64,000 nucleotides of DNA from Leisingera sp. ANG59 (GTDB taxonomy: Bacteria; Pseudomonadota; Alphaproteobacteria; Rhodobacterales; Rhodobacteraceae): NCBI RefSeq assembly GCF_013317235.1, contig NZ_WLCM01000002.1, positions 147,299 through 211,298 of the forward strand, read 5' to 3'. Positions within the stretch are counted from its first letter, which is position 1, and every line of letters starts with the position of its first letter. Below are positions 2,256 to 33,050 of the stretch, piece after piece. The notes under the pieces were generated by a model. That model saw nothing but the letters and a program-made list of their open reading frames with translations. It made no database searches and was not told where the DNA came from. The position numbers and the translations under genes are program-made.

Positions 2256-3428
2256 ATGGATGCCATAGACGATCTCTCCCGCTGGATGATGACCGAGGGA
2301 CGCTGCTGCGGCGATCCGGTCAAGGTTGTCTCGCACTTCTGCACAACGCTGATCGAGGCCGGCGTGCCGCTGTGGCGAGTCAACATCGGGCAGCGTTTTG
2401 CAAACCCGCTGCTGATTGCCTGGGGCGTTGTGTGGACACCGGAGAGCACAGAGAGCTACGACGTCACCCATGATGTGATGCTGACGGACAGCTACGTCGG
2501 CAGCTCTTTCGAATACATTCTGGCCCATCGCCGCCCGCTGCACAAAAACCTGCGCGGCCTCGACCCTGAGGCCGACCACATCTCCTATCATGAGTTCGCC
2601 GAGGCAGGCGGCACCGACTACTATGCCACGCTGCTGTATTACGGCGACGGATCACTGCACGGCTGCACCTTTGTCACCCAGTCGGACAGCGGCTTCACGG
2701 CGGAGAACCTGGAAATGATTGAGGCCTCCCTGCCCGGCCTTTCCTGCGCCCTGGAACCCGTCACCATGCGCAAATCGTCGCGCAGCCTGCTGCGGACCTA
2801 TCTGGGCGACGGCCCGTCAGACGCGGTCTGGAACGGCTCGATCAAGCGCGGCGAGCTTACGGCGCTGGACGCCGTTGTCATGTTCACGGACCTGCGCGGC
2901 TTTACCGCCCTGTCTGACAGCGCCAGCGAAGAGGACGTATTCGAGACCCTGAACACCTATTTCGACGTGGTGGTGCAGGCGGTTGAGGAAGCAGGCGGTG
3001 ACGTGCTGAAGTTTATGGGAGACGGCATTCTCTCTATCTTCAGTGGCGCTGGCGGACGCAGCCGCGCGGACCAGTGCCGCCAGGCTGCACAGGCAGCGCA
3101 AAAGGCGCTCGCCGGGCTGGCGGCTGTGAACGGCGCCCGCGCCGCAACAGGCCACCCGCCGCTTGCGATCGGCATTGGCATCAACGCGGGCCGCGTCAGC
3201 TATGGCAATATCGGCAGCCCTGGCAGGCTGGATTTCACGGTGCTCGGCGCCGCAGTGAACCTGGCGAGCCGGATCGAAGGCCTGACGAAATCCACCGGGC
3301 ATTCCGTTCTGGCATCCGCCTCTGTCGCCGCGGCTGCACCCGATCTGTTTGAAAGCTGCGGCCGCTACAATGTGCGCGGGGTTTCCACGCCGGTAGAAGT
3401 CTTTTTCCTGCGCGGTGACGCCACATAA
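2256..3428 (+). CDS. Class III adenylate/guanylate cyclase
   Basis: A soluble 390-aa protein predicted to make cAMP. About the first 195 residues form a GAF-like sensory region with no recognisable ligand motif. The catalytic domain spans about 200-385. Metal-binding Asp212 (in FTDLRGF) and Asp256 (in FMGDG) are present, as are the purine-specifying Lys252 and Thr328, and the transition-state residues Asn335 and Arg339 (VNLASR). All essential residues are therefore intact, and Lys plus Thr favours ATP over GTP. No signal peptide or membrane segment is visible. No clear Shine-Dalgarno precedes the ATG. It is the first of two class III cyclases in the window. Confidence 0.9.
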   Translation: MDAIDDLSRWMMTEGRCCGDPVKVVSHFCTTLIEAGVPLWRVNIGQRFANPLLIAWGVVWTPESTESYDVTHDVMLTDSYVGSSFEYILAHRRPLHKNLRGLDPEADHISYHEFAEAGGTDYYATLLYYGDGSLHGCTFVTQSDSGFTAENLEMIEASLPGLSCALEPVTMRKSSRSLLRTYLGDGPSDAVWNGSIKRGELTALDAVVMFTDLRGFTALSDSASEEDVFETLNTYFDVVVQAVEEAGGDVLKFMGDGILSIFSGAGGRSRADQCRQAAQAAQKALAGLAAVNGARAATGHPPLAIGIGINAGRVSYGNIGSPGRLDFTVLGAAVNLASRIEGLTKSTGHSVLASASVAAAAPDLFESCGRYNVRGVSTPVEVFFLRGDAT

Positions 3429-10795: not shown

Positions 10796-13237
10796 ATGAC
10801 CCAGAAACTCGTCATCATCGGGGCCGGCATGGCCTCTGGCCGGGTGATCGAGCATCTGCTCGACGCGGACCCGAACGCCTACGATATCACCCTTTTCAAC
10901 GCCGAGCCGCGCGGCAACTACAACCGCATCATGCTCAGCCCGGTGCTGTCGGGCGAGAAGACCTACGAGGACATCGTCACCCATTCAGACGAATGGTACG
11001 CCGAGCACGGCATCACCTGCCGCTTCGGCGAGCATGTGGTGAAGATCGATCCCGAGATGAAGGTGGTCGAGGGCGAGAACGGCCATGTGCCCTACGACAA
11101 GCTGGTGATCGCCACCGGCTCCGCCCCCTTCACTATCCCGGTACCGGGCCACGACCTGCCGGGGGTGATCTCCTACCGCGATCTGGACGACACCAACGCG
11201 ATGATCACCGCCGCTGCCAAGGGCGGCAAGGCAGTGGTGATCGGCGGCGGGCTCCTGGGGCTGGAAGCCGCCGCGGGCCTCAAGGAGCGCGGCATGGACG
11301 TGACCGTGCTGCACCTGATGGGCCACCTGATGGAACGCCAGCTCGACGAGGCCGCGGGCTACCTCTTGCGCAAGGACCTGGAGGCGCGCGGCATCACCGT
11401 GAAGACCCAGGCCTCCACCAAGGCAATCCTGGGCGAGGACCGCGCTCAGGCGGTGCATCTGGAAAGCGGCGAGACGCTGGGCGCCGATCTGGTGGTGATG
11501 GCGGTGGGCATCCGTCCGGAAACCCGGCTCGCCACCGACGCGCATCTGGACGTAGCGCGCGGGATCGAGGTGAACGCGCAGATGCAGACCTCCGACCCCG
11601 ACATTTATGCGGTCGGCGAATGCGTGGAGTTCGGCGGCCATCTGTTTGGCCTCGTCGCGCCGCTTTACGATCAGGCGAAAGTGCTGGCGGACAGCCTCCT
11701 GGGCCAGCCGAATGCCTTCGTGGTCAAGGAACTGGCGACCAAGCTCAAGGTCACCGGCTGCGACCTGTTCAGCGCCGGGGATTTTGCCGAGGGCGAAGGG
11801 CGCGAGGACATCGTCTTCCGCGACCCCTCCCGCGGGGTTTACAAGCGGCTGGTGATCGAGGACGACCGGCTCGTCGGCGCGGTGATGTATGGCGACACCG
11901 CCGATGGCAGCTGGTTCTTCGGCCTGATCAAGGACGCCACCGATATCGAGGAGATGCGCGAGACGCTGATTTTCGGCCCGGCCTTCCAGGGGGGCGCTTC
12001 CGCGGACCCTCTGTCAGCCGTTGCAGCCTTGCCGCCTGAGGCGGAGATCTGCGGCTGCAACGGCGTCTGCAAGGGACAGATCACCAGCGCCATCGACGGC
12101 GGCGCAACCGACCTCGGCGCGATCCGCTCTGAAACCAAGGCCAGCGCCTCCTGCGGCACATGCACCGGGCTGGTGGAGCAGCTTCTGCAAGTGACGCTGG
12201 GCGACGACTTCCAGATGCCGCAGGCGCAGCCGGTCTGCGGCTGCACCGATCTCAGCCACGAGGACGTGCGCCGCCTGATCAAAAGCCAGGAGCTGAAAAG
12301 CCAGGCCGCGGTCTGGCAAGAGCTTGGCTGGACAACCCCGAACGGCTGCCATGTCTGCCGCCCGGCAGTGAACTACTACCTGCTGGCCGACTGGCCGCTG
12401 GAATACTGCGACGACCCGCAAAGCCGCTTTGTGAACGAGCGCAAGCACGCCAACATCCAGAAGGACGGCACATTTTCCGTGGTGCCGCGCATGTGGGGCG
12501 GCATCACCACGCCCGACGAACTGCGCGCCATCGCCGATGCCGCCGACAAATACGACGTGCCGACGGTCAAGGTCACCGGCGGCCAGCGCATCGACCTGCT
12601 GGGCGTGAAGGGCGAGGATCTGCCCGCGATGTGGGCAGATCTGAACCGCGCCGGGCTGGTCTCGGGCCACGCCTATTCCAAAGGGCTGCGCACGGTGAAG
12701 ACCTGCGTCGGCACTGACCACTGCCGCTTTGGCACCCAGGACTCGACCGGGCTGGGCATCAAGCTGGAGAAACACCTCTGGGGCTCCTGGACCCCGCACA
12801 AGCTGAAGCTCGCGGTCTCCGGCTGCCCGCGCAACTGCGCCGAGGCGACCTGCAAGGACATCGGCGTGGTCTGCGTCGACAGCGGCTATGAAATCCACGT
12901 CGGCGGCGCCGCCGGCATGGAGATCAAGGGCACCGAGATCTTGTGCAAGGTGGCAACCGAAGAAGACGCGATCGAGGTGATTTCGGCCATGACCCAGATC
13001 TACCGCGAGAACGCCAAGTACCTGGACCGGATCTACAAATGGCTCGCCAAGGTGGGGCTGGACTGGGTCAAGGCGCAGATCGTCGAGGACATCGAAAACC
13101 GCAAGGCGCTCGCCGCCCGGTTCGAGCTCTCGCAATCCGTCTACCGCAAGGACCCCTGGGCCGAACACGCGCAGGACAGCACCACCCGGGCGCAATACGC
13201 GCCGCTTGCCAATCTCACACTGGAGGCCGCGGAATGA
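10796..13237 (+). CDS. nirB: Assimilatory NAD(P)H nitrite reductase large subunit
   Basis: An 813-aa enzyme reducing nitrite to ammonium. The order is FAD domain (IIGAGMASG near residue 8), NADH-binding domain (VVIGGGLLGLEAA near 147), and two BFD-like [2Fe-2S] modules (CGC...C with CGTC near 419-455, then CGC...CHVC). A siroheme/[4Fe-4S] reductase core follows, with ligands CVGTDHC near 637-643 and CPRNC near 677-681. All cofactor cysteines are visible. An upstream in-frame ATG adds six residues inside the ATPase gene; the start used here begins exactly at the Rossmann strand. Its TGA overlaps the nirD ATG. It corresponds to NasB of Paracoccus. Confidence 0.96.
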   Translation: MTQKLVIIGAGMASGRVIEHLLDADPNAYDITLFNAEPRGNYNRIMLSPVLSGEKTYEDIVTHSDEWYAEHGITCRFGEHVVKIDPEMKVVEGENGHVPYDKLVIATGSAPFTIPVPGHDLPGVISYRDLDDTNAMITAAAKGGKAVVIGGGLLGLEAAAGLKERGMDVTVLHLMGHLMERQLDEAAGYLLRKDLEARGITVKTQASTKAILGEDRAQAVHLESGETLGADLVVMAVGIRPETRLATDAHLDVARGIEVNAQMQTSDPDIYAVGECVEFGGHLFGLVAPLYDQAKVLADSLLGQPNAFVVKELATKLKVTGCDLFSAGDFAEGEGREDIVFRDPSRGVYKRLVIEDDRLVGAVMYGDTADGSWFFGLIKDATDIEEMRETLIFGPAFQGGASADPLSAVAALPPEAEICGCNGVCKGQITSAIDGGATDLGAIRSETKASASCGTCTGLVEQLLQVTLGDDFQMPQAQPVCGCTDLSHEDVRRLIKSQELKSQAAVWQELGWTTPNGCHVCRPAVNYYLLADWPLEYCDDPQSRFVNERKHANIQKDGTFSVVPRMWGGITTPDELRAIADAADKYDVPTVKVTGGQRIDLLGVKGEDLPAMWADLNRAGLVSGHAYSKGLRTVKTCVGTDHCRFGTQDSTGLGIKLEKHLWGSWTPHKLKLAVSGCPRNCAEATCKDIGVVCVDSGYEIHVGGAAGMEIKGTEILCKVATEEDAIEVISAMTQIYRENAKYLDRIYKWLAKVGLDWVKAQIVEDIENRKALAARFELSQSVYRKDPWAEHAQDSTTRAQYAPLANLTLEAAE

Positions 13238-13566
13238 GCTGGATCGACATTGGCCATATCGAAGACATCCCGCTGCACGGCGCCCGGGTGGTGAAGACGC
13301 CCGTGGGCTGCGTCGGCCTGTTCCGCACTGGCCCGGCGGAGGTCTTTGCCGCCTCCGACCGCTGCCCGCACAAGGGCGGCCCGCTGTCGGAAGGCATCGT
13401 GCACGGGCAAAGCGTGACCTGCCCGCTGCACAACTGGGTCTTTGACCTCAACACCGGCGAGGCGCAGGGCGCCGACGCGGGCCGGATCGAGACCTATCCG
13501 CTGCGCGTGGAGGCCGGCCGCCTGCTGATCGACGGCGCCGCCGTCGGCAAGCGGAGTGCGGCGTGA
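13234..13566 (+). CDS. nirD: Rieske-type nitrite reductase small subunit
   Basis: A 110-aa Rieske [2Fe-2S] protein. The ligands Cys44/His46 (CPHKGG) and Cys63/His66 (CPLHNW) are all present, unlike enteric NirD, which lacks a cluster. This is the arrangement of Paracoccus NasG, where the protein carries electrons from the NADH-oxidising NasB to both nitrite and nitrate reductases. Start and stop both overlap neighbours (ATGA with nirB, TGATG with nasA), so the three proteins are probably made in fixed ratio. Confidence 0.95.
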   Translation: MSWIDIGHIEDIPLHGARVVKTPVGCVGLFRTGPAEVFAASDRCPHKGGPLSEGIVHGQSVTCPLHNWVFDLNTGEAQGADAGRIETYPLRVEAGRLLIDGAAVGKRSAA

Positions 13567-25693: not shown

Positions 25694-25709
25694 TGACGCA
25701 ATCGTGATG
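25694..25709 (-). promoter_or_regulatory. Shared upstream 16-mer (SDR-alkC copy)
   Basis: TGACGCAATCGTGATG, matching 14 of 16 bases of the element upstream of arsM, lies 81 bp before the SDR start codon in the divergent region shared with the Hint-domain gene. Confidence 0.45.
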
Positions 25710-25817
25710 CTGCCGGAAAATCTGCCCCGTTCCACCGCCATTGTGCCACATTCCGCAGGCATTTCTGTTGGACAGCGCCCCGCGCTCGCCCACATATGGA
25801 CCAAGACAAACCCGCAG

Positions 25818-26831
25818 ATGGGACAGACAGTGACCGCCAGCCTCTCTTCCGTTCAGGCCTACCCGGCCGAGCGTTTCCGCGTGGAATACGGTGCCAATGC
25901 GGGCGACCCCCTTGGCGTGCTCGAGGATCTGGTGCTGGACGACATCTATCTGCTGGACAGCCCGGCCCCGCCGCAGCGCCTGGCCATCGCCGCCCATCAC
26001 GATGGCAGTTTCACCGTTGCGGACGACAGCGCCATCGGCACACCCGGCGCGGTGCTGCATCTGGACGGCCTCGTGACCCTGATGCCCGACCGCGGCCCCA
26101 ACACCGAGATCCTGGTGATGGTGGAGGCCGACGGCGAGGGCTATATCGCCGCCATCTACCTGGTGCCGCTGGCGCCCTTGCAGCCGCAGATGCCCTACAC
26201 ACTGGTCAAGGCCGAGCGCGAGCAGGCCCGGCGCAAGCTGGCGCAATCGGCCTGCGTCTCCTTTACCCGCGGCACCCGCATCACCCTGTCCACCGGCGAG
26301 CAGCGCGCGATCGAGGACATGCGCACCGGCGACCGGGTGCTGACCCGCGACGACGGCATCCAGGAGGTGCGCTGGGTCGGCCAGTCCACCCTGCGCGCGG
26401 TAGGCGACCTGGCCCCGATCCTGATCCGCAAAGGCGCCCTGAACAACTCCAACGACCTGATCGTCAGCCCCGGCCACCGGCTGATGGTCTACCAGCGCCG
26501 CGACGAGATCGGCGCCGGCGCGCCGGAACTGCTGGTCCGCGCCCGCGATCTGGTGAACGGCGGCAGCGTGGTGGTGCTGGACGGCGGCTTCACCGATTAC
26601 TTCCAGATCCTGTTCGACCAGCACCACATCATCTACGCCGAGGGGATCGCGGCCGAGAGCACCTTCCTCGATCCGGTCACCCGGCAGGTGCTGCCCGAGG
26701 ATTTCTGGACCGCCCGCCCCGGCACCCTGCCCGCCACGCACACGCGCGGCGCCCACGGGCTGGACGTGAGCCGGTCGCTGCTGGACCGGCCGGACGCGGT
26801 GCGGCTGCTGAAACGGGCCTCGCTGCGCTGA
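25818..26831 (+). CDS. Hint-domain protein
   Basis: A 337-aa protein. About the first 145 residues form a beta-rich domain of unknown function. A Hint (hedgehog/intein-like) module follows from Cys in ACVSFTRGTRITLSTGEQRAIEDMRTGD (shown in part), through VSPGHRLMVYQRR, to HHIIYAEGIAAEST. Proteins of this type are abundant in Rhodobacteraceae, often in exported or adhesin-like contexts, and may autoprocess. No signal peptide is visible, and there is no intein C-terminal Asn junction. The open frame continues far upstream with no coding sense; the ATG used begins MGQTVTASL. Confidence 0.82.
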   Translation: MGQTVTASLSSVQAYPAERFRVEYGANAGDPLGVLEDLVLDDIYLLDSPAPPQRLAIAAHHDGSFTVADDSAIGTPGAVLHLDGLVTLMPDRGPNTEILVMVEADGEGYIAAIYLVPLAPLQPQMPYTLVKAEREQARRKLAQSACVSFTRGTRITLSTGEQRAIEDMRTGDRVLTRDDGIQEVRWVGQSTLRAVGDLAPILIRKGALNNSNDLIVSPGHRLMVYQRRDEIGAGAPELLVRARDLVNGGSVVVLDGGFTDYFQILFDQHHIIYAEGIAAESTFLDPVTRQVLPEDFWTARPGTLPATHTRGAHGLDVSRSLLDRPDAVRLLKRASLR

Positions 26832-26981: not shown

Positions 26982-27821
26982 ATGATCAGGCACATCTTCC
27001 TCACCCTGGGGGTCATGCTGTTGGCATGGCCGGTTGCAGCGCAGAAGGCAGGCGTCGGCGCATGGGAAAACTCCAGCCACAGCATCCTCAGCTGGATCGA
27101 GGACACCCCTGGCCTCGGCTGGTACTACAACTGGCGCCCGGATCAGATGTACCACAAGGGCCGCCAGAGCCGCTCTGTCGAATTCGTGCCGATGATCCAC
27201 AACGCGCGCGACGTGAACAAGCGCATCCGCTCGGACCAAAAGGTCACTGCGCTTCTGGGCTTCAATGAACCCGACGGGCGCAGCGGCGGCCACCAGGCCG
27301 GGATGAGCGTGCAGCAGGCCGTGAAGCTGTGGCCGAAGCTGGAGCGCCACGGGCTGCGCCTGGGCAGCCCGGCCACCACCCAATCGGGCACATTGGGGGC
27401 CAACTCCTGGCTGCGCCGCTTCATGGATCAGGCCGACGCCAAGGGCCTGCGCGTCGATTTCATGGCTGTGCACTACTATTCCGCGGACGGCAACGTGAAG
27501 GACTTTGAACGCTGGCTGCGCGCCGTCCACCGCGAGTACCGCCGCCCCGTCTGGGTGACGGAATTCGCCCATATCGACTGGGGCCGCCCGGCGGCCGCCA
27601 GCCACGCGCAGAACGCGGCCTTTGCCCGCAAGGCGATTGCGATGATGGAGCGCCTGCCGTTTGTCGAGCGCCACGCCTGGTTCGCCGCCAACCCCTATCC
27701 CTGGCAGGGCCGCGCGCCGCAGATCAATCTGCTGCGCGACGACCTGACCCCGACCCCCGCGGGCGACGCCTTTGCCCGCGCCGTCAGCCGGGCTGCCGGG
27801 CTGCAGGTGGCCAGCAACTGA
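26982..27821 (+). CDS. Secreted GH128-type beta-1,3-glucanase
   Basis: A 279-aa exported glycoside hydrolase. MIRHIFLTLGVMLLAWPVAA is a signal peptide. The catalytic fold matches the GH128/Asl1-like (glyco_hydro_cc) family: FVPMIHN, Glu96 in LLGFNEPD as likely acid/base, HYYS, and Glu194 in VWVTEFAHIDWG as likely nucleophile. GH128 enzymes cut beta-1,3-glucans, which for a marine bacterium suggests laminarin or callose. There are no carbohydrate-binding module and no nearby polysaccharide-uptake genes. A purine-rich AAAGAGAGCAG precedes the ATG. Confidence 0.83.
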   Translation: MIRHIFLTLGVMLLAWPVAAQKAGVGAWENSSHSILSWIEDTPGLGWYYNWRPDQMYHKGRQSRSVEFVPMIHNARDVNKRIRSDQKVTALLGFNEPDGRSGGHQAGMSVQQAVKLWPKLERHGLRLGSPATTQSGTLGANSWLRRFMDQADAKGLRVDFMAVHYYSADGNVKDFERWLRAVHREYRRPVWVTEFAHIDWGRPAAASHAQNAAFARKAIAMMERLPFVERHAWFAANPYPWQGRAPQINLLRDDLTPTPAGDAFARAVSRAAGLQVASN

Positions 27822-27903
27822 ACCGGCGCAGCCCTCAATGTTGGGCTTTGCGGGCTCCGCACTACCATCTGAGGCACCGATGACCCTTGCAGGGAGGCCG
27901 CGG

Positions 27904-29286
27904 ATGCCCCGTCTCAGATCTCAGCCCGATGATATTTTCTTTGACATTGATCCCGGGGAAACCCTGCTGGAGGCGGCCCTGAGGGCCGGGCTGCCGATGA
28001 CCCATGTCTGCGGCGGCCATGCCAAATGCTCCACCTGCCGGGTCTGGGTGCTGGAGGGGCTGGAAAACTGTCCGGAACGCACCGGCGCCGAGGCGGAAAT
28101 GGCCGCCCGGCTTGGCCTGCACCCCGGCATCCGGCTGGCTTGCCAGATGCGCCCCAAAGGCGGCCTGACCTTCCGCAGGCTGGTGCTGGACGAGACCGAC
28201 CTGGCACTGACCAGCCAGCTCCACCGCCGCCAGCCCGCCAAGGTTGGCGAGCTACAGGACGTCGCAGTGTTTTTTTCCGACATCCAAGGGTTCACCAGCT
28301 TTTCCGAAGCGCTGATGCCCTATGACGTGATGTACCTGCTGAACCGCTACTTCGCCCAGATGGGAGAGGTGATAGAGAGGAACGGCGGCTATATCGACAA
28401 GTTCATCGGCGACGGGATGATGGCGCTGTTCGGGCTGGACGGGGACGCGGCTGCACCGCTGCGGGCGGTGAACGCGGGGCTGCAGTGCCTGACGGTCATT
28501 GACCGGATCAAACCGTTCTTCAAGACCATGTATGATATCGATTTCGAAGTCCGCATCGGCCTGCACTGGGGCGAGGCCGTGATCGGCACGCTTGGCGCGC
28601 CGGGCCATGAGCGGCTGACTGCCATCGGCGATGCGGTCAATGTGGCCAGCCGCGCCGAGCAGGCGAACAAGGCCGCTGGCACCCGTTTCCTGGTCACCGA
28701 GTCCCTGTTCGAACAGGTGAAGGATCAGGTCGAGGCGTCGGATTTCATCCGGGTCCGGCTGCCCGGCACCACCGCACGCCAGACGCTGTACGAAATCGCG
28801 CGGCTGCTGCCAGCGGCCTCGGCGGCTCTCACCGGTCAAGACAACCGCGAGACCAAACGCTATGCCGGGCGCGACTGGTCCCGGCTGATGGCAGAGGACA
28901 CACTGCCGGACGGCGGCCAGCAAATCTTTGAATTCGCAGACTGCGATGTCGCAGTGCTGCGCCGGGACGGCCAGCTGTTCGCCTTCAACAACGCCTGCCC
29001 GCATGTGCATCTTCCGTTCTTCAACCGCCGGGAAAACCTGGACGACCCCGGCCAGCTGCGCCCTGATGAAAGCCGTGCCAGCAGCGGCGAACTGGTCTGC
29101 CGCTGGCACAACAGCCGCTTTGACCTGGCCACAGGCGAGGTGATCAGCTGGTGCGAGCTGCTGCAACCCGACGGCACTTCGGAAGGGATGGAGTTCCTCG
29201 GCGACATCTCCAAGAACAAGGGCCCGCTCCGCCTTTACCCGCTGCATGTTGCGGATGGCTGGGTCTGGATTGCGTTCGACCGCTGA
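27904..29286 (+). CDS. Ferredoxin-adenylate cyclase-Rieske fusion
   Basis: A 460-aa cytoplasmic protein with three modules. Residues 1-95 are an adrenodoxin-like [2Fe-2S] ferredoxin with Cys36, Cys42, Cys45 and Cys80 (C-X5-C-X2-C...C). Residues about 115-300 are a class III cyclase with metal ligands Asp126 and Asp170, Lys166 and Thr239 for adenine, and Asn246/Arg250, all intact. Residues about 320-460 are a Rieske domain with Cys365/His367 and Cys399/His402, the two halves separated by 31 residues. It could couple iron-sulfur or redox state to cAMP synthesis; that is inference. The start chosen has AGGGAGG 6 nt upstream; ATGs at 27838 and 27880 are alternatives. Confidence 0.9.
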   Translation: MPRLRSQPDDIFFDIDPGETLLEAALRAGLPMTHVCGGHAKCSTCRVWVLEGLENCPERTGAEAEMAARLGLHPGIRLACQMRPKGGLTFRRLVLDETDLALTSQLHRRQPAKVGELQDVAVFFSDIQGFTSFSEALMPYDVMYLLNRYFAQMGEVIERNGGYIDKFIGDGMMALFGLDGDAAAPLRAVNAGLQCLTVIDRIKPFFKTMYDIDFEVRIGLHWGEAVIGTLGAPGHERLTAIGDAVNVASRAEQANKAAGTRFLVTESLFEQVKDQVEASDFIRVRLPGTTARQTLYEIARLLPAASAALTGQDNRETKRYAGRDWSRLMAEDTLPDGGQQIFEFADCDVAVLRRDGQLFAFNNACPHVHLPFFNRRENLDDPGQLRPDESRASSGELVCRWHNSRFDLATGEVISWCELLQPDGTSEGMEFLGDISKNKGPLRLYPLHVADGWVWIAFDR

Positions 29287-29349: not shown

Positions 29350-30804
29350 TCAGCGGAACTGCACCTCGCTGATCGCGGTATCCCGGTACTTGGTGCCGTA
29401 ATAGACGCCGCTCAGCGTGAGGGTGATCCAGGTGACCTGCCCCAGCGGCGGCAGGCGCAGCTCCTGCAGCCCGTCCCGGTCTTCCAGCACCGCCTCTGCC
29501 CGGTAGCCCGCCGAGGTCTGAACGATCAGCGACCGCACCCGGCCGTTCTTCAGAAAGATGTCGCGGCTCTTGCCATAGCCGTTGGCGATCAGCACCCGGC
29601 TCACCTGCTGCGGCCCGTCAAAGGCAAAGCGCAGCACCTCCCCCGCGCCGTCATCCGCCCGCCCCTCGACCCAGGCGGTGCGGGCGCTGCCGTCCGACAG
29701 CATCTCCCCCGAATAGGCATTGCGCCCCAGCGGCGCCAGATGGGAGGACACGCACAGCTCAGCCGGAACCGCCCCGAACCGCCCCCGGTGGCAGGCATAG
29801 GCCGGCGTTGCCGGCAGCGGCAGATGCCGCGGCGGCTGCGGCGCCGGCGCCTCCAGCCCCGCCAGCGCCTCCAGCGCCAGCAGCACATAGAAATCCTCCG
29901 GCCGGTCCCGGTGGGCATCTACAAAGGCCTGCCAGGCCGCCCGGGTGCCGATCCGCTCCGCCAGCCGGTACTTCCGGGCGATATCATCCGCCGGCGCCGC
30001 AGGCACGGCCGCAGGCTGCGCCGCCGCCGCGGGCCGGCTGTGGAAATAGAAATCCCCGGTGATCGAGCTGGTCTCCCACGGCACCTGCCGCTCCTGGGTC
30101 ACCGCCAGCACCTCGCTGCGGGCCGCCTTGAACACCGCCTCGATGGTGCGCCCGCCGCCGGCGGAGATCACCCCGGCCAGCGCCCTGGTATAGGGCGAGT
30201 TGGCGCCGCTGCCGTCCAGCGCCACGTCGCCCGGCGCGGTGGCATAAGCAATCAGGGTGCCGCGCGGCGCGTCCACCGGCGCCAGCCCCCGCGCCGCCGA
30301 CCGGGCAGAGGCGGCAAAGGGATTGTTGCGGCAGGCATCCAGAATGACGATGTTGATGCTGGCATTCGATGAATTCATCACCCGCAGGAAGCTGTTCACA
30401 TTGACCGCTTCCAAGTCGATCTCATCCTCGCTGGCGATGGCGGCGCTGACCGGCACCAGGTAGTTCTCGCCGTCCACCTGCACCCCGTGCCCGGCATAAT
30501 AGAACAGCCCGGCCTCCACCCCCTCGCCGCGCAGCCGCCGCCCGAACCGCAACAGCGCCTGCTTCATGCCGCCCAGATCCGCATCCAGCAGCGTGGTCAC
30601 CTCGAACCCCGCCCCCTCCAGCGCCGCGGCCATAACCCGCGCATCATTGCCGGGATTGGCCAGCGGCGCGGTATGGGCATAGTTCGAATTGCCCACCACC
30701 AGCGCAATCCGCTCCCCCGCCCGGGCCGGAGCAATGGCGAGCGTCAGGAGCGCCAGCACCACCCCCGCCGCCGCGGTCCGGATCAGCCAAATTCGATGCA
30801 GCAT
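29350..30804 (-). CDS. Secreted caspase-like (C14) protease
   Basis: A 484-aa protein. A signal peptide (WLIRTAAAGVVLALLTLAIA) is cleaved near ARA29. A caspase-family p20-like domain has catalytic His106 (YYAGHGVQ) and Cys158 (LDACRNNPF), followed by the RGTLIAYATAPG and SPYTRAL motifs of bacterial orthocaspases. An Ala/Pro linker leads to a C-terminal beta-sandwich (about 370-484) of discoidin/NADase-type glycan-binding character (SGEMLSDGSARTAWVEG). It is therefore a periplasmic or secreted Arg/Lys-specific protease with a possible glycan-binding tail. The ATG chosen has GAAAGAGGCGGG upstream; the frame extends 17 codons further. Confidence 0.87.
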   Translation of the reverse strand: MLHRIWLIRTAAAGVVLALLTLAIAPARAGERIALVVGNSNYAHTAPLANPGNDARVMAAALEGAGFEVTTLLDADLGGMKQALLRFGRRLRGEGVEAGLFYYAGHGVQVDGENYLVPVSAAIASEDEIDLEAVNVNSFLRVMNSSNASINIVILDACRNNPFAASARSAARGLAPVDAPRGTLIAYATAPGDVALDGSGANSPYTRALAGVISAGGGRTIEAVFKAARSEVLAVTQERQVPWETSSITGDFYFHSRPAAAAQPAAVPAAPADDIARKYRLAERIGTRAAWQAFVDAHRDRPEDFYVLLALEALAGLEAPAPQPPRHLPLPATPAYACHRGRFGAVPAELCVSSHLAPLGRNAYSGEMLSDGSARTAWVEGRADDGAGEVLRFAFDGPQQVSRVLIANGYGKSRDIFLKNGRVRSLIVQTSAGYRAEAVLEDRDGLQELRLPPLGQVTWITLTLSGVYYGTKYRDTAISEVQFR

Positions 30805-31161
30805 CCCGCCTCTTTCCCGTGGTTTGCAATCAAGGGCTTGCGGGTATCTAGGCAAAGGCGGCGGAAAAAATCAATTGGGGGCTGGCTTGAGTTGGCCCCA
30901 GCAAGACAGGCCGCATGCGGCAGGGCTGCAGAAGCGGGAGTCTTTGGGGTAAGTTGTCTTGTCAGCAAGGTGTCCGTTTCGAGCCCGAAATTGCGTTACC
31001 CTGGTCGGAACTCTTGGCTGCGGCAGCATGCTGGCTGGGAACGCCCTGCAGACATCTGTGCCGCACGTTCCTGATGTAAAAGCTGCCCTTCCAGGAATTA
31101 TCAAGGAAGGGCCGCTTCAGCTTCAGAGGTCACTTGGTCCGGGAAGAGATAGCAGAACCTG
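30805..31161. other. Intergenic region between caspase-like and amidohydrolase genes
   Basis: 357 bases containing the leader of the caspase-like gene and, at its right side, the terminator of the amidohydrolase gene. The middle is less GC-rich than neighbouring sequence. I see no gene or RNA that I can support. Confidence 0.6.
31078..31117 (-). terminator. Terminator of the amidohydrolase gene
   Basis: On the minus strand, AAGC-G-GCCCTTCC and GGAAGGGC-A-GCTT pair (one internal mismatch) around a 12-nt loop and end in TTTT, about 45 nt after the stop codon. Confidence 0.65.
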
Positions 31162-32687: not shown

Positions 32688-33050
32688 TTACTCCCCTACC
32701 CTGCGCCGCTGCAGGTCCTGCTGCAGTTCACGGGCGCGCAGGCCAATGCGCAGGATGGTGTTGTCCTTGTCATGGGCCTGAATATGCCCCGCCAGCAGTG
32801 CCAGCCAGTAGATCCGCAGCACGGAGTTGATGCGGCGGCTGTAGTTCGGGCCCAGTTTACGAAACCATTTCACCATGTCCTCATCCAGCCGGATCGTCAC
32901 CCGGGTCTTCGGCTTGTCGATCCGCTCCCAGCTCAGGATGCCGTCCCAGTCGTCCGGCAGGCTCTTGTCCAGCCAGTCGCGGCGCAAGTTCTGCTGCAAC
33001 TCATCAAGTTCCAGCTGCATTTCATTGTCATAGTATCGCTTGCTGGGCAT
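32688..33050 (-). CDS. Orphan BrnA-like ribbon-helix-helix protein
   Basis: A 120-aa protein. The middle (about residues 50-80, RVTIRLDEDMVKWFRKLGP then SRRINSVLRIYW) is the BrnA antitoxin-type ribbon-helix-helix motif. A helical C-terminus follows. BrnA normally pairs with the toxin BrnT immediately upstream, but no BrnT-like frame exists on either side, so it may act as a free transcription regulator. The ATG has a GGGAGAG Shine-Dalgarno; the upstream part of the frame is a Pro/Arg-rich spurious extension. Confidence 0.78.
   Translation of the reverse strand: MPSKRYYDNEMQLELDELQQNLRRDWLDKSLPDDWDGILSWERIDKPKTRVTIRLDEDMVKWFRKLGPNYSRRINSVLRIYWLALLAGHIQAHDKDNTILRIGLRARELQQDLQRRRVGE

Follow-up and report, generated by a model that had tools for sequence, protein, structure and literature searches.

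A rare class III cyclase flanked by ferredoxin and Rieske domains in Leisingera and scattered other bacteria, with a possible role in coupling Fe-S state to cAMP

Introduction

CyaC of Sinorhizobium meliloti is a membrane adenylate cyclase reported to be redox-regulated, and its membrane anchor is described as a hexahelical diheme-B domain (PMC10463352). The CyaC-type proteins of other genomes carry a Fer2 ferredoxin domain directly before the cyclase (in all three of those scanned), and ahead of this core the ten proteins examined have between two and six hydrophobic segments. In 2019 Wissig et al. reportedly found a binuclear Fe-S cluster in CyaC itself. Soluble relatives with only two domains, Fer2 and then cyclase, occur in cyanobacteria (L083, L084 and L086), in Hymenobacter (L085) and in KSB1 (L087), with L104 as a further example; L083 to L087 are 40-46% identical to the protein described here.

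This protein is encoded by the marine bacterium Leisingera sp. ANG59 within the window, by which we mean the whole stretch of 64,000 nucleotides that was analysed. Like the CyaC-type proteins, it has Fer2 directly before the cyclase. Unlike CyaC, it has a C-terminal Rieske domain, lacks the hexahelical membrane anchor that characterizes CyaC and has no hemes, through which the reported control of CyaC runs. The two-domain proteins, whose Fer2-cyclase make-up Pfam confirmed for L083 and L104, also differ from it in having no Rieske domain. The novelty is the combination, since each of the three domains, and the concept of a cyclase under redox control, was already known. Among the open-access PMC full-text matches listed, a set that mostly leaves subscription journals outside, no paper was recognized by its title or the start of its abstract as describing a Fer2-cyclase-Rieske protein.

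Domain architecture

A single open frame encodes the 460 residues, and its start at 27904 is backed by relatives beginning at the same place. The features are as follows.

27904..29286, + strand: Fer2-class III cyclase-Rieske protein, 460 residues (translation, Pfam, residue check, genome scan)
27922..28158, + strand: ISC/adrenodoxin-type [2Fe-2S] ferredoxin domain, residues 7-85 (Pfam Fer2; Cys36, 42, 45, 80)
28174..28248, + strand: ferredoxin-cyclase linker, residues 91-115 (conserved R91, R92, L93, D96, D99, Q105, G115)
28249..28767, + strand: class III cyclase catalytic domain, residues 116-288 (metal Asp126/Asp170, purine Lys166/Asp243, Asn246/Arg250)
28876..29283, + strand: Rieske domain, residues 325-460 (Pfam 325-415; Cys365, His367, Cys399, His402; domain model)

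The earlier note had read three complete modules in one protein, and Pfam finds all three, each beyond its curated cut-off: Guanylate_cyc at residues 116-288 (E=1.1e-21), Fer2 at 7-85 (E=7.5e-12) and Rieske at 325-415 (E=1.7e-10). Every residue that it named (Cys36, 42, 45 and 80, Asp126, Lys166, Asp170, Asn246, Arg250, Cys365, His367, Cys399 and His402) lies where it had been placed. Asp243, the second purine-selecting residue and partner of Lys166, had gone unnamed and is present too. The 460 residues contain no hydrophobic segment (the highest 19-residue mean is 1.02), and the protein is therefore expected to be soluble. The whole-protein model has a pTM of 0.57 and its relative domain placement is unreliable, so it was not used for domain arrangement; the structural matches listed for it (VIA; 50 Foldseek rows) are cyclases throughout.

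Distribution of the family

The family was sought in 84,980 species' genomes (one genome per species) with an alignment of six full-length relatives as the query, and the best 80 of 124 relatives were kept. Among these, at least 62 loci match through the Rieske domain (L022-L082 and L088), a lower bound from a scan that required exact short-peptide matches. The other 18 comprise five soluble two-domain proteins (L083-L087) and 13 longer CyaC-type proteins (L089-L101). Among the genera with the three-domain form are Leisingera, Ruegeria, Mesorhizobium, Ensifer, Rhizobium, Phyllobacterium and Stappia, and it is also found in draft genomes labelled Gammaproteobacteria, Gemmatimonadetes and Bacteriovoracales.

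In narrower samples, which partly overlap and all include the window's own genome, the genomes with a full three-domain match number 4 of 198 for the family (all from different genera), 2 of 385 for the class, 2 of 398 for the phylum and 2 of 21 for the genus. At E <= 1e-60, matches of some extent occur in 94 of the 385 class genomes, but all except the two full-length ones end at or before profile position 319, and Fer2-cyclases without Rieske are commoner in this sample than the three-domain form. The suggestion that the architecture is uncommon is thus borne out by its frequency in the class, although it recurs at no fewer than 62 loci, rhizobia included: it is rare, but it is not a one-off.

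One could suppose that the gene arose by chance fusion, is a misassembly or is decaying. Two of the 62 loci, L074 and L079, do have broken frames, and L038 lacks Cys36. However, the other 60 are intact, come from several phyla and keep the same domain order, and the Leisingera aquimarina copy is intact at 82% identity. These relatives refute the idea, to which we attach next to no credence. The gene is also not a phage system, as none of the nine matching phage-collection records covers 80% of the query, nor a plasmid system, as only two of 614 matching plasmid-collection records cover at least 80%, both of them rhizobial replicons of over 2 Mb.

On a tree of 49 rows, in which several long branches meet and the deep branching is uncertain, a starred branch (100/100) separates the soluble proteins from the CyaC-type rows, and the L. 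aquimarina protein is the sister of the one in the window (100/98). One change in the presence of Rieske suffices on a quick 39-row tree, in which 34 rows have the domain and five lack it; this tree kept the trait's own columns and so favours low change counts. For the conservation counts below, L074 and L079 were removed beforehand and clustering of the 64 three-domain sequences at 90% identity left 29 non-redundant members.

The ferredoxin domain and the linker

The Fer2 domain has the ligand pattern C-x5-C-x2-C ... C. Its top NCBIfam match is fdx_isc (E=3.4e-11), at 43.3 bits against an equivalog cut-off of 132.1, which makes it a related domain rather than that protein; in the PDB it matches the ferredoxin 1i7h (E=4.5e-12). 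Cys42, Cys45 and Cys80 are kept in all 29 non-redundant members and Cys36 in 28, L038 being the retained locus without it.

Between ferredoxin and cyclase, R91, R92, L93, D96, D99, Q105 and G115 are each identical in at least 28 of the 29. Such conservation makes the linker a candidate transducer between the two domains; its residues 101-113 have low confidence in the structural model. The RRL-D-D motif is common to several of the two-domain soluble proteins L083-L087 and is absent from the three CyaC-type rows compared.

The cyclase domain and its substrate

The PF00211 match and the metal-binding residues Asp126 and Asp170 place the central domain among the class III cyclases, and the corresponding part of the model superposes on CyaB (3r5g_A) with Z 26.8 and rmsd 1.9 over 191 aligned residues. 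In these enzymes a Lys/Asp pair is responsible for ATP and an Asn/Arg pair for the transition state. The window copy has the canonical Lys166/Asp243 pair as well as Asn246 and Arg250, a complete ATP-type set.

The family is less uniform in its purine-selecting residues than in the others. Asp126, Asp170, Asn246 and Arg250 are identical in 29 of 29 members. Position 166 is Lys in 17, Asn in seven and Ser, Arg, Leu or Asp in five, while position 243 is Asp in 26 and another residue in three. Five further near-identical rhizobial copies, from R. etli, R. gallicum, R. mongolense (two) and P. brassicacearum, have Asn at both positions, and fall outside the 29 through merging with others in the clustering. 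The loci with Asn/Asn in place of the pair are L020, L021, L064, L066 and L070, and two Stappiaceae (L069 and L073) have Leu/Pro. The presence of Lys166 needs five changes on the 39-row tree. Because these two positions vary, some family members may form a product other than cAMP or be inactive; copies without Lys166/Asp243 possibly have a changed substrate or no activity. In Rv1900c, an active cyclase, Asn stands in place of this Lys.

Such variation beside fixed Fe-S ligands, which suggests a stricter constraint on the Fe-S part than on substrate choice in some members, is what might be expected if the Fe-S domains were not regulatory at all, but a redox module fused to the cyclase that is structural or serves another electron-transfer partner. 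Against this stand the four invariant catalytic residues and the conserved linker, and we consider it a quite improbable explanation.

The window's genome also encodes a CyaC-type protein, L002, with Gly where its relatives have the purine-selecting Asp; one unread base lies nearby, and the Gly could be an assembly error.

The Rieske domain

The C-terminal domain combines the C-x-H ... C-x2-H ligands with a predicted Rieske fold. Modelled alone it reaches a mean pLDDT of 88, and its closest structural match is the Rieske ferredoxin of naphthalene dioxygenase (2qpz; Z 13.8, rmsd 1.7, 102 aligned). The predicted fold and the ligand pattern are those of the naphthalene (2qpz) and toluene (3dqy) dioxygenase ferredoxins. 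Those ferredoxins are separate electron carriers, whereas this domain is fused to a cyclase, and it differs from them in an inserted loop and a DGT...GDISKN segment that most of the 33 aligned members retain. In Rieske proteins of the cytochrome bc1 type, two extra cysteines form a disulphide. The corresponding positions are Leu370 and Trp401 in the window protein, the best structural matches are dioxygenase ferredoxins, and a bc1-type assignment is rejected.

A recount confirms 31 residues between the two ligand pairs, but the earlier note's description of this gap as unusually long does not survive comparison. The gap is 27-39 in 57 of the 62 family members and 17-18 in the other five, so that 31 is ordinary for three-domain proteins and no special feature. 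It is 32 in the small Rieske proteins L140 and L146, the latter from the window's genome.

Although the Rieske region is the least conserved part of the protein (mean identity to the window copy 0.457, versus 0.643 for the cyclase), its four ligands (Cys365, His367, Cys399 and His402) do not vary in any of the 29 members. This invariance, with the near-invariance of the Fer2 cysteines, favours the reading in which the state of the clusters, most likely redox, sets cyclase activity.

Two other kinds of Rieske protein were seen. The window has, at 13216-13560 (+), a short one of 115 residues with a ligand-pair gap of 16, judged by eye to be probably the nitrite reductase small subunit NirD. L144 and L145 are open frames of 535 and 546 residues in which a Rieske domain near the start is followed by a long part.

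Position in the genome

The gene lies between two genes of other kinds, and a block that includes it is shared with L. aquimarina.

26982-27821, + strand: glycosyl hydrolase core protein, upstream flank
27839..29286, + strand: block common to the window and the L. aquimarina copy (80.9% DNA identity, unrelated flanks)
29350-30855, - strand: caspase-domain protein with a C-terminal NADase_transloc F5/8-type domain, downstream flank

A Hint-domain protein at 25701-26831 (+) adjoins the glycosyl hydrolase core protein. Among the stretches compared, that of L. aquimarina shares only 27839-29286 with the window, ending at the stop codon. In three congeners, DNA homology to the window stops at 27829 (G940), 27824 (G951) and 27825 (G938), just past the glycosyl hydrolase gene that lies upstream, and picks up again at 32738, 29348 and 29341, respectively. 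In that interval all three (L157-L159) carry a histidine kinase of 601-604 residues with an adjoining response regulator of 140 residues, the G951 pair being CHASE-HisKA-HATPase and Response_reg by Pfam and the G940 and G938 pairs being assigned by eye from similarity. A search of the window's genome for this kinase (E <= 1e-30) gave only a 36% match elsewhere. The limits of the block and the other genes that congeners carry at this place make the cyclase gene a discrete unit at a variable spot. The block is apparently a unit that moves, and the simplest reading of these comparisons is that the gene was gained by transfer.

Neighbouring genes

Clustering covered the open reading frames of the window and 64 loci (65 stretches), with mechanical picking of frames and with redundant contexts within single lineages. 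No neighbour family is common to most of the loci. The largest clusters, in 16 and 12 loci, consist of short-chain dehydrogenases and LysR regulators, both very large superfamilies, found at scattered distances and on both sides, so a conserved operon partner is rejected; a third cluster, in 11 loci, gave no Pfam identification. Families shared within 1.5 kb are mostly limited to one lineage. As there is no fixed operon partner, the protein is expected to signal by way of diffusible cAMP. PF00211 matches number 19 in the window's genome, one with internal stops, and there are ten cNMP_binding matches, which are possible receivers of the signal.

In eight rhizobial loci (L037, L042, L049, L052, L055, L056, L060 and L076) a second class III cyclase gene of differing architecture lies within 1.5 kb, and cyclase genes seem to cluster there. 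Four of these neighbours were scanned and are of DUF5939-cyclase, zinc-ribbon-cyclase-AAA-TPR, SAM-cyclase-AAA-TPR and CHASE2-cyclase types. The window holds a second class III cyclase at 2256-3428 (+), of 390 residues, whose cyclase match covers 2844-3377 and whose N-terminal part differs.

The window protein belongs to a clade of five, and each of the other four members has, within about 1.5 kb, a gene for Fe-S assembly: FeS_assembly_P in L023, L024 and L025, with Fe-S_biosyn slightly further off in the last two, and a NifU/Nfu gene upstream in L022. These genes suit a protein that senses Fe-S supply no less than they suit a redox switch. The protein could then be a labile-cluster sensor of Fe-S supply, oxygen, NO or reactive oxygen, in which loss of or damage to the cluster, and not its redox state, sets activity. 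The window gene itself, however, has no Fe-S assembly neighbour, and a tblastn search of 64 loci (L020-L082 and L088) with the two genes of L025 found them in no other locus. The other neighbours examined are unrelated (TatC, seryl-tRNA synthetase, glutamate-cysteine ligase, MFS and PALP enzymes, among others). On this evidence the Fe-S assembly genes, like the rhizobial cyclase neighbours, are leads and not partners. They shift confidence slightly towards cluster occupancy as the signal, and we regard a labile-cluster sensor as rather unlikely but deserving of attention.

A model for the function

Our preferred reading, in which we place only slightly more belief than doubt, is that the protein is a soluble, cAMP-forming cyclase set by the state, most likely redox, of two [2Fe-2S] centres in the same chain. 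A homodimer of the class III cyclase would make cAMP from ATP. The ISC-type ferredoxin directly before the catalytic domain would act on the catalytic dimer via the linker R91-R92-L93...D96...D99...G115. The dioxygenase-ferredoxin-type Rieske domain after the cyclase would provide a second, cytosolic input in place of the membrane anchor of CyaC. Both clusters would thus feed the cyclase dimer, with Rieske as the added input. The sequence and model data establish the domains and their ligands, the conservation, the predicted fold, the distribution and the shifting genomic position; we infer that the clusters assemble and that the protein dimerizes, forms cAMP and is gated by redox, as well as which way the switch works and any passage of electrons from one cluster to the other.

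That redox or Fe-S status might be an input to cAMP output, as the earlier note proposed, is plausible given the near-invariant ligands and the Fer2-cyclase core held in common with the redox-regulated CyaC type. The canonical cyclase set, this shared core and the lack of a hydrophobic segment all favour the redox-set reading. It is weakened by the loss of Lys166 in 12 of 29 members and of Asp243 in three, and by the reported control of CyaC being exerted through hemes.

A bolder form of the model, which we think unlikely, is a single-chain redox comparator. Electrons would pass between Rieske and ferredoxin within the dimer, each cluster would dock one of two electron pools, and cAMP would report the balance of the two; the lineages with changed Lys166/Asp243 would have been retuned to another cyclic nucleotide.

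If the redox-set reading is correct, this family would offer a soluble, easily purified system in which Fe-S state directly sets the level of a second messenger and which needs neither the membrane nor the hemes of CyaC. The natural variants at Lys166 and Asp243, together with the fixed Fe-S ligands, would make regulation and substrate choice separable. It would also help to explain how bacteria with many cyclases assign one of them to cytosolic redox or Fe-S status.
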